Source of the DNA: an uncultured Bacilli bacterium
Lineage (GTDB): Bacteria; Bacillota_I; Bacilli_A; RF39; UBA660
Reading direction: 5' to 3'
NCBI GenBank assembly: GCA_944372485.1
Contig: CALVZI010000030.1
Location: 1 to 34,525 of the forward strand
DNA length: 34,525 nt
Below the pieces are notes generated by a model that was given only the letters and a program-made list of their open reading frames with translations, was not told where the DNA came from and did not search any database. The stretch's first letter is position 1. Each line of letters begins with the position of its first letter. Of this stretch, positions 32,346-34,525 are shown piece after piece. The position numbers and the translations under genes were made by a program.

Positions 32346-33446
32346 ATGGAAGAAGAATATAAAAAAATATTAGATTATATATGGGATTGTTATAGTAATG
32401 ATAAATTTAATGATGTAGAATTTAATTTTTATGAAACTAGAAAAGAAAAAGGAAAACATCGAGCTGGAATATTTATTCAAGATGAGAAGAAATATTTCTT
32501 TAAAATAGTTCATAGTGACGAATATAATAATGAAGATATTATATTAGAAAAAATTACCCCATATTTTAAAATAGTGCCTTTATATAAACAAAAAATATTA
32601 GAGGATTATGTTATAGGTTTATATCAATATGTTGATACAACTGGTATTAATGCTTTTAATTATTTACGTTTAAAGAAAGTTAGTTTATTAGATAAAGAAG
32701 AAGTATTAAATAAATTTTTTGAAAGTAAATTTTCTTTCTTAAAAAATAATATGTATTTAGATAAAGTAACAAATAATCAAAAAGGCGATCGTTGGTTTTG
32801 GCATCGAATAAAAAAAGGGGAACGTGTTGATAAATTTTATGGGACTAATGGAAATAAGTTATTAAGTGATATAAAAGAAGTTTATCCTGAAGGATTAAAT
32901 AATATGGAAACGTTTTTAAATAATATTTATATATATTTAGAAAGTAAGCATAATACTATTTTTAGTTATAGTCATGGTGATTTTCACGATTTTAATTTTT
33001 CTTTAGAAGGTTTATTTTGGGATATAGATACTTTTGATTATAATCCAATTATAAATGACTTTGCGGTATTTTATTGGCATTTTTATGCAAGAGAAGATAG
33101 TTTGATTTATAAATATTCACCGTGGTTAACTTTATATATGAATAATGAATTAACTAAAGAAGAATTAAAACAAGTAAGAAATTTAAAAGAAAAAATAATT
33201 TTAAAATGGTATAGTGTAATTTATGATGCGTTTAAAAAAGAAAATATATTATATGAATTAAATAACGAATTTATTTTTAAATTGTTTTGTCGTATGTTCT
33301 TAATAGATGATGTCACTAAATATGAAGTTAGTGATAAAGAAAAAGTATATAAATTTTTTGATTATATAATTCAAAATAAAGATAAAGATTTAAAAGATGT
33401 ATTATTTAATAGCAAAACAACTTTTGAATATAATAATTATTTATAA
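32346..33446 (+). CDS. APH/choline-kinase-fold phosphotransferase
   Basis: A 366-residue protein with a kinase-like core. The N-terminal lobe has KKYFFKIVHSDEYNNEDIILEKI (the lysine and glutamate fit ATP binding). The C-terminal lobe has HGDFHDFN at 210-217 (catalytic H-G-D and the metal-binding N217) and FWDIDTFDYN with D227/D229. Such enzymes phosphorylate small hydroxyl compounds such as sugars, choline or antibiotics. The substrate here is not evident, and the glycan context makes a sugar or choline-like decoration more likely than drug resistance. The ATG follows GGGGAGG. The gene is the last of the glycan region. Confidence 0.8.
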   Translation: MEEEYKKILDYIWDCYSNDKFNDVEFNFYETRKEKGKHRAGIFIQDEKKYFFKIVHSDEYNNEDIILEKITPYFKIVPLYKQKILEDYVIGLYQYVDTTGINAFNYLRLKKVSLLDKEEVLNKFFESKFSFLKNNMYLDKVTNNQKGDRWFWHRIKKGERVDKFYGTNGNKLLSDIKEVYPEGLNNMETFLNNIYIYLESKHNTIFSYSHGDFHDFNFSLEGLFWDIDTFDYNPIINDFAVFYWHFYAREDSLIYKYSPWLTLYMNNELTKEELKQVRNLKEKIILKWYSVIYDAFKKENILYELNNEFIFKLFCRMFLIDDVTKYEVSDKEKVYKFFDYIIQNKDKDLKDVLFNSKTTFEYNNYL

Positions 33447-33456
33447 AATATACAAT

Positions 33457-33484
33457 TTGACAATTTTAACGCATATGATATAAT
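33457..33484 (+). promoter_or_regulatory. Consensus sigma-A promoter of the structured RNA
   Basis: TTGACA (33457-33462), 16-nt spacer, TATAAT (33479-33484). Both hexamers are perfect. Transcription should begin near 33491, just before the 5' strand of the RNA's closing helix. No ribosome binding site or credible reading frame follows. Confidence 0.85.
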
Positions 33485-33490
33485 GTAATT

Positions 33491-34068
33491 ATAAATTGAT
33501 GGCGCATTATTCTAGTCAATTAATTTATTACGAAGACGGGGCTAAAAATCCGTTAAAGAGCATATCTGTGAAACTTTTGGTGCTTGCTTCATACGCCCAG
33601 TTTGGGGTGAGTGCTGAGAGGGAAGAGTGTTGGGCGCTCGTAACGGCATACGACTCCGACCCACCACTTGTGGAGACCTATTCTTGTCGTAAACGAGATA
33701 GATTTATGACATCTTAGGCTTGAACCTACTTTGTGATGAAAGTTATGAGTAGCGTAGCTTGTCTTGCGTGGTAATAGGGGATAAATGATCAACCAAGTAG
33801 TCTATGGCCAAAATTATTTGGTATTGCATTTTGAAACTATTATTGCAAAAAAGAATTAGTAATAAATATTGTTTGAGGAAAACTCCTAGAGTGTCAATCT
33901 ATATGGGATTGCAGTGTGTACTAAGTGGTAATCAAGTCATATATTTGGTGACAATATATTTAGTTTTTTAAAGGGGAACCGCTATATGGTAACGTATAGT
34001 AAGACTAAGGGAAATCCTACTTGACCTAAAGACACAAGGTTTACTATATGGAATGCCATTTTTTTTAT
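33491..34068 (+). ncRNA. Large structured non-coding RNA, ROOL-like candidate
   Basis: About 575 nt between the kinase gene and tnpB, clearly richer in G and C than the surroundings. The ends pair: ATGGC (33499-33503) with GCCAT (34055-34059), continued by ATT/AAT across a bulge, and eight Ts follow, so the closing stem can also act as terminator. Internal helices visible by eye: GAGTG/CGCTC (33625-33629, 33635-33639), TCTTG/CGAGA (33682-33686, 33694-33698), CAATC/GATTG (33895-33899, 33907-33911) and TATAGTAA/TTACTATA (33995-34002, 34041-34048). Length, own promoter, low-GC host and lack of a coding partner fit the ROOL class of ornate large RNAs. OLE, GOLLD or an unnamed class cannot be excluded without a covariance search. 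The RNA call is strong; the class name is tentative. Confidence 0.7.
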
Positions 34069-34107
34069 ATATTAGGAAAGTTCTTTACTAAAAGCATCAA
34101 AAAGTCA

Positions 34108-34134
34108 TTGACATACGTATGTTCGTATGATAAT
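34108..34134 (+). promoter_or_regulatory. Promoter region of tnpB with a hairpin
   Basis: TTGACA (34108-34113) and GATAAT (34129-34134), 15-nt spacer. CATACG (34112-34117) can pair with CGTATG (34124-34129), and ACATACGTATGT (34111-34122) is a self-complementary 12-mer. It could be an operator or the subterminal hairpin of an IS200/IS605-type left end. Confidence 0.45.
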
Positions 34135-34156
34135 ATTAAATCATGGTGGTGATTTT

Positions 34157-34525
34157 ATGAAGATATATAAAACATATAAATTTAGATTATATCCAAATAT
34201 AGATCAACAAGAATTAATCAATAAAACTTTAGGGTGTGCTAGATTTGTTTATAATACAATGTTATACGAAAAAGAAACTTTATATAAAGAAAATAAAATT
34301 AAAAAAACTAAAAATGATTGTTTAAAAGAATTAGCACTATTAAAACAAACATACCCATGGTTAACAGAAGTAGATAGTATGGCTTTAACAACTACAATAT
34401 TTGATTTAGAAGATGCCTTCAAAAATTTTTATCGAACAAAATATTTTCTTAAATATAAAAATAAAGATAAAAAAATAGTTATCGAACTAATTATATAAAA
34501 AGAATTTATAAAGATAAGCTATATG
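34157..34525 (+). pseudogene. tnpB: IS200/IS605-type tnpB, frameshifted and cut by the window edge
   Basis: The first 110 residues match the N-terminus of TnpB RNA-guided nucleases: MKIYKTYKFRLYPNIDQQELINKTLGCARFVYNTML (recognisable by KFRLYPN and GCARFVYN), then YPWLTEVDSMALTTTIFDLEDAFKNFY. The frame then stops at 34498. One base earlier in phase, the sequence after an A7 run (34469-34475) reads NSYRTNYIKRIYKDKLY, which is the normal TnpB continuation (QSYRTN motif) and stays open to the end. So a single-base indel splits the gene, or it is a sequencing error or a slippage site. RuvC residues and any omega RNA would lie beyond the window. The ATG at 34157 follows GGTGGTGAT. No tnpA is seen. 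Confidence 0.85.

Follow-up and report, generated by a model that had tools for sequence, protein, structure and literature searches.

A full-length OLE RNA gene followed by an IS605-type element in an uncultured Bacilli bacterium

In this study we show that a 34,525-nucleotide stretch of DNA from an uncultured Bacilli bacterium (the window; its genome is G000) carries a complete OLE RNA gene at positions 33491-34066, an assignment that we consider practically certain. OLE is a large folded non-coding RNA of many Gram-positive bacteria that is thought to work in the membrane together with the protein OapA (PMC11332333, PMC9723947, PMC12286853, PMC12265935). The RNA described here is an ordinary new member of this already known class. 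Its identity, full length, conserved structure and promoter are established, as is the pairing of ole with oapA in the genus and family. Taken as a whole, the findings are very probably best explained by an ole gene that would yield a free-standing RNA, a membrane particle in which this RNA would be held by OapA, and an oapA gene lying beyond an unassembled IS605-type element.

RESULTS

Identity and limits of the RNA

The features of the region are the following, all on the + strand.

32346-33446, +: open reading frame of 366 aa with no Pfam match; not part of the OLE unit and absent at this position in genome G003
33457-33462, +: -35 hexamer TTGACA of the ole promoter; with the -10 hexamer a 12/12 match, present in most relatives
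33479-33484, +: -10 hexamer TATAAT, preceded by TG
33491-34066, +: OLE RNA gene, full length (RF01071; cmscan and covariation)
33499-33503, +: 5' arm of the terminal helix, AUGGC, pairing with 34055-34059
34055-34059, +: 3' arm of the terminal helix, GCCAU, pairing with 33499-33503
34059-34066, +: U-tract (eight Ts), 3' end of the RNA and probable termination site; similarity to the uninterrupted site of genome G004 stops here
34067-34525, +: left end of an IS605-type element present in multiple copies, truncated where the contig stops; recognised from similar copies in G000 and G003, their shared left end and element-free sites
34157-34498, +: N-terminal fragment of TnpB (PF12323, E 4e-18; NF038281, 105.5 bits, profile positions 2-105 of 360)

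Using cmscan we found a match to the OLE model RF01071 at window positions 33483-34075 (+) with 418.5 bits (gathering score 50, E 8.8e-120), and this match covers model positions 1-616 of 616, i.e. the model from end to end. Because its outermost bases overlap the -10 box on one side and the transposon end on the other, we place the RNA itself at about 33491-34066. In a permissive Rfam scan of this small region the ROOL, GOLLD, HEARO, intron and tmRNA models gave no match at E <= 1 on the strand of the RNA; since OLE alone scored on that strand, these classes are excluded at E 1. Apart from OLE, the scan returned up to E = 1 only PreQ1, in antisense orientation (21.6 bits, E 0.11), which we rejected as it lies below its cut-off of 39 bits.

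A first-pass annotation of the window had proposed an autonomous ornate RNA of about 575 nt at 33491-34068. This reading was correct, the full-length OLE measuring about 576 nt, and its limits were right within about 2 nt, as the T-run, and with it the RNA, stops at 34066. The same annotation had assigned the RNA to the ROOL class, which was wrong. It had also listed OLE among the models to be checked by a covariance-model search, and it was this search that returned OLE; a match to an intron or tmRNA-like class, which it would have held against its own proposal, did not appear at E <= 1.

Conserved structure, promoter and coding potential

The structure of the RNA is conserved, not merely predicted. 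Covariation was examined in 12 full-length sequences, aligned with plain MAFFT rather than fitted to the model, with the Rfam structure mapped on the window; the other 11 sequences are 65-89% identical to it. Changes on both sides were found in 93 of the 151 pairs, distributed over 16 helices, and 87.4% of the alignment cells were paired. The covariation score was 0.409, compared to 0.188 +/- 0.008 for shuffled and at most 0.128 for slid controls, and none of 500 shuffles reached the observed value. The several helices and the covariation within them that had been expected from the letters are therefore present, the latter strongly (93/151 pairs, n = 12 sequences). The terminal helix is supported by relative L011 as well, which has GUGGU/ACCAC where the window has AUGGC/GCCAU. 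The folding energy of 33491-34066 is -156.5 kcal/mol (z = -3.5), with 0/100 shuffles equally stable.

In GC content the stretch also exceeds every other 576-base piece of the window (37.3% versus a window mean of 24.2%; 0/660 sliding windows elsewhere as high). The hexamers of the promoter are separated by a spacer of 16 nt and together with the extended TG precede the RNA directly; according to the alignment, this promoter is kept in most relatives. A simple terminator scan behind OLE found nothing, probably because the closing helix of OLE is long-range and the scan takes local hairpins only. The only notable reading frame within the RNA is a TTG-start ORF of 73 aa, which is kept in the near-identical G003, while the stop-free frames of the other relatives reach only 31-64 aa. 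We rejected a protein-coding reading of the stretch since this frame is not kept beyond G003. Hence the first-pass annotation was accurate in reading a perfect TTGACA/TATAAT promoter that leads in (33457-33484), GC enrichment, paired ends, a terminal U-tract and no credible protein.

Comparison with known OLE forms

The window RNA shares with full-length OLE RNAs the whole-model match, the conserved helices, the terminal helix, the U-tract and a promoter of its own; in relatives the RNA is adjoined by oapA, and these relatives are Bacilli. It differs in having a transposon where oapA usually starts. Compared to the RF01071 model, a short hairpin at positions ~424-435 is absent. One loop region falls short of that in some family-mates by about 16 nt, as it also does in G004. 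OLE variant 2, which lacks P7 and P8, is common in RF39 gut Bacilli (PMC11332333). Its hosts, small-genome Bacilli known from metagenome-assembled genomes, are of a similar kind, whereas the window RNA keeps the P7/P8 block. Two family-mates, G016 (L014) and G022 (L013), carry a short OLE of 495 nt (227-231 bits) in which the block is missing and which looks like variant 2. Judging by these sequences, it looks as if full-length and variant-2-like forms both occur within one family.

OLE and OapA in related genomes

We searched 40 genomes for OLE: G000, 24 genus- and family-mates and 15 genomes at class level. OLE was present in 15 of them, namely in G000 and in 14 of the 24 genus- and family-mates, and was not found in the 15 class-level genomes. 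The score of the window RNA is among the best of its family, with no sign of decay. In most OLE-positive family-mates the next gene encodes a membrane protein, which measures about 200 aa, carries a DVxGD (DxxxD) motif that is invariant and in several of them shows weak CNNM similarity; a DxxxD motif and weak CNNM similarity have both been described for OapA (PMC11332333). In a scan of GTDB genomes in which 80 oapA loci were kept, OLE lay upstream in 74, mostly within about 100 bases. OapA is also absent from all ten OLE-negative family genomes. In G007, OLE and oapA lie on different contigs.

Within the genus, G004 has an intact order of ole, oapA, perR and rubrerythrin, with an OLE 88.6% identical to that of the window. 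G001 and G002 are without OLE and oapA, yet keep perR-rubrerythrin; in G002:C6 (L023) the setting is conserved, an LtaS-like (lipoteichoic-acid-synthase-like) gene leading on to perR and rubrerythrin, but the space before perR contains neither OLE nor oapA. In G003:C65 (L015/L022) one deletion has broken both genes at once: OLE keeps its 5' part and oapA its 3' part, and the two are fused; a chimeric assembly may lie behind this junction. Among the GTDB loci, L081 and L093 have a gene between OLE and oapA that we judged from its sequence to be polysaccharide-deacetylase-like, and a prepilin-like gene after oapA.

Other partners of OLE were sought as well. No L7Ae-family protein (YbxF/OapC) was found in 22 family genomes, the control being positive in B. 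subtilis. In G000 we found no OapB candidate, the sole KOW proteins being L24 and NusG, and no MpfA-type CNNM protein. OapB and OapC are essential in H. halodurans but not universal, and are largely absent and dispensable in the RF39 and TANB77 gut clades (Fernando and Breaker, PMC11332333). Their absence here agrees with the published picture of reduced gut Bacilli, and they are not defining for the OLE class.

The IS605-type element and the missing oapA

Directly after the U-tract of OLE, at the usual place of oapA, an IS605-type element starts, and the contig ends inside it. The transposon that had been noted beside the RNA is thus present, immediately downstream, and the glycan locus noted there lies upstream. 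Near the contig end, within an A-rich stretch (34460-34498), the TnpB frame terminates prematurely, reflecting either damage to this copy or a fault of the assembly. The 366-aa ORF, located between OLE and the GDSL-lipase gene, carries an HGDFHDFN motif; from its sequence, this motif suggests a kinase-like fold.

In G004 OLE is followed by oapA, perR and rubrerythrin. None of these three was found in G000, a 91%-complete genome, although perR and rubrerythrin are present in 4/4 genus-mates. Nine copies of the element were examined in G000, and each was located at, or within 2 bases of, a contig end; therefore it was the element that broke the assembly. Because perR and rubrerythrin are missing together with oapA and the contig ends in a repeat, an assembly gap over the whole oapA-perR-rubrerythrin block is the likeliest reading. 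On the same grounds we rejected a true loss of oapA in G000 as unproven. We sought the far side of the gap by means of a response regulator that stands after rubrerythrin in G002 and downstream in G004. G000 has only distant paralogues of it (at most 35% identity), so the gap is not bounded by this gene.

To describe the insertion site we compared 14 left ends of the element, nine from G000 (including the window) and five from G003. A T-run followed by ATATATTA or ACATATTA was found at all 14. At 10 of them a hairpin of -4 kcal/mol or lower directly precedes the T-run, compared to 11% of 176 T6 sites in the window (Mann-Whitney p 2e-7, with a background from one window and 14 related copies). 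One copy follows a T-box leader (RF00230, 99.9 bits) at its terminator, and in G003 this T-box is uninterrupted. At the window copy the local hairpin is weak (-1.7 kcal/mol), but here the closing helix of OLE and its U-tract precede the site. These findings suggest that the element inserts behind intrinsic terminators (copies L037-L049, window 34067-34525). We found no fitting report of IS200/IS605 elements choosing terminators, which does not show that such reports are absent.

DISCUSSION

The ole gene described here might work as follows. The sigma-70-type promoter would drive transcription of a free-standing RNA of about 576 nt ending at the U-tract. By analogy with characterised OLE RNAs, for which dimers (PMC12286853) as well as OapA binding and membrane localisation (PMC12265935) are known, it would fold into an ornate structure and dimerise via its 5' domain. 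OapA, a small CNNM-related putative divalent-metal transporter, would then hold it in or at the membrane. In other species OLE is needed for growth in the cold, in alcohol, in Mg2+ and on poor carbon sources (PMC9723947, PMC11332333), and the particle may likewise help the present cell to adjust to such stresses. No feature of the window is at odds with this picture. Transcription, dimerisation, membrane location and function of the window RNA are all inferred. Since candidates for OapB and OapC were not found, the particle in this lineage is probably minimal, consisting of OLE and OapA. With the IS605-type element inserted directly after the U-tract, oapA probably lies beyond it in unassembled sequence, and we infer that a membrane particle with OapA is likely to exist in this strain.

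A possible alternative is that the OLE RNA is being lost: the insertion would have removed or displaced oapA, leaving an orphan RNA without a working particle. The failure to find oapA in a largely complete genome would fit such a loss, as would the fate of the pair elsewhere in the genus, where it is broken by the fusion deletion of G003 and both genes are gone from G001 and G002. Nevertheless we consider it unlikely, given that the RNA scores among the best of its family without decay, that the absence extends from oapA to perR and rubrerythrin, and that the copies of the element at contig ends provide a technical explanation for the break. It is likewise improbable that the strain lacks OapA and yet retains an OLE RNA, intact and apparently selected, with the transposon between. 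If true, this would contradict the published rule that neither OLE nor OapA is found without the other.

The idea of a ROOL-class RNA building an RNA nanocage has practically nothing left in its favour beyond a similar size and structural complexity, both being large ornate non-coding RNAs, a term that covers OLE, ROOL and GOLLD. The window RNA has no sequence or structure match to ROOL (E <= 1), as opposed to full-length OLE at 418.5 bits, and its context is different. ROOL RNAs are often, though not universally, encoded by phages or prophages near tRNA islands (PMC12286853); no tRNA genes were found in the window, and its ORFs, as read by eye, have the look of chromosomal genes for housekeeping, glycans and transport. 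The RNA-only multi-subunit particle suggested earlier holds in so far as an OLE RNA dimer has been seen by cryo-EM, but not as a nanocage, which is the form of ROOL and GOLLD (PMC12286853).

Equally negligible is an RNA owned by the transposon, e.g. a TnpB guide RNA: the RNA does directly abut the left end of the element, but in relatives OLE occurs with no such element beside it, and the element is preceded by other sequences at its other copies. A TnpB guide RNA would normally overlap tnpB at its 3' end; OLE, by contrast, lies on the 5' side.

In conclusion, we add a further full-length OLE RNA to those of small-genome Bacilli. Its genus presents a natural series in which the pair is intact in G004, the RNA is followed by a transposon in the window, the pair is broken by one deletion in G003 and it is absent from a conserved setting in G002. 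This series supports the possibility of a particle without OapB and OapC, and it supports the view that OLE RNA and OapA share one fate, both being retained or both lost.
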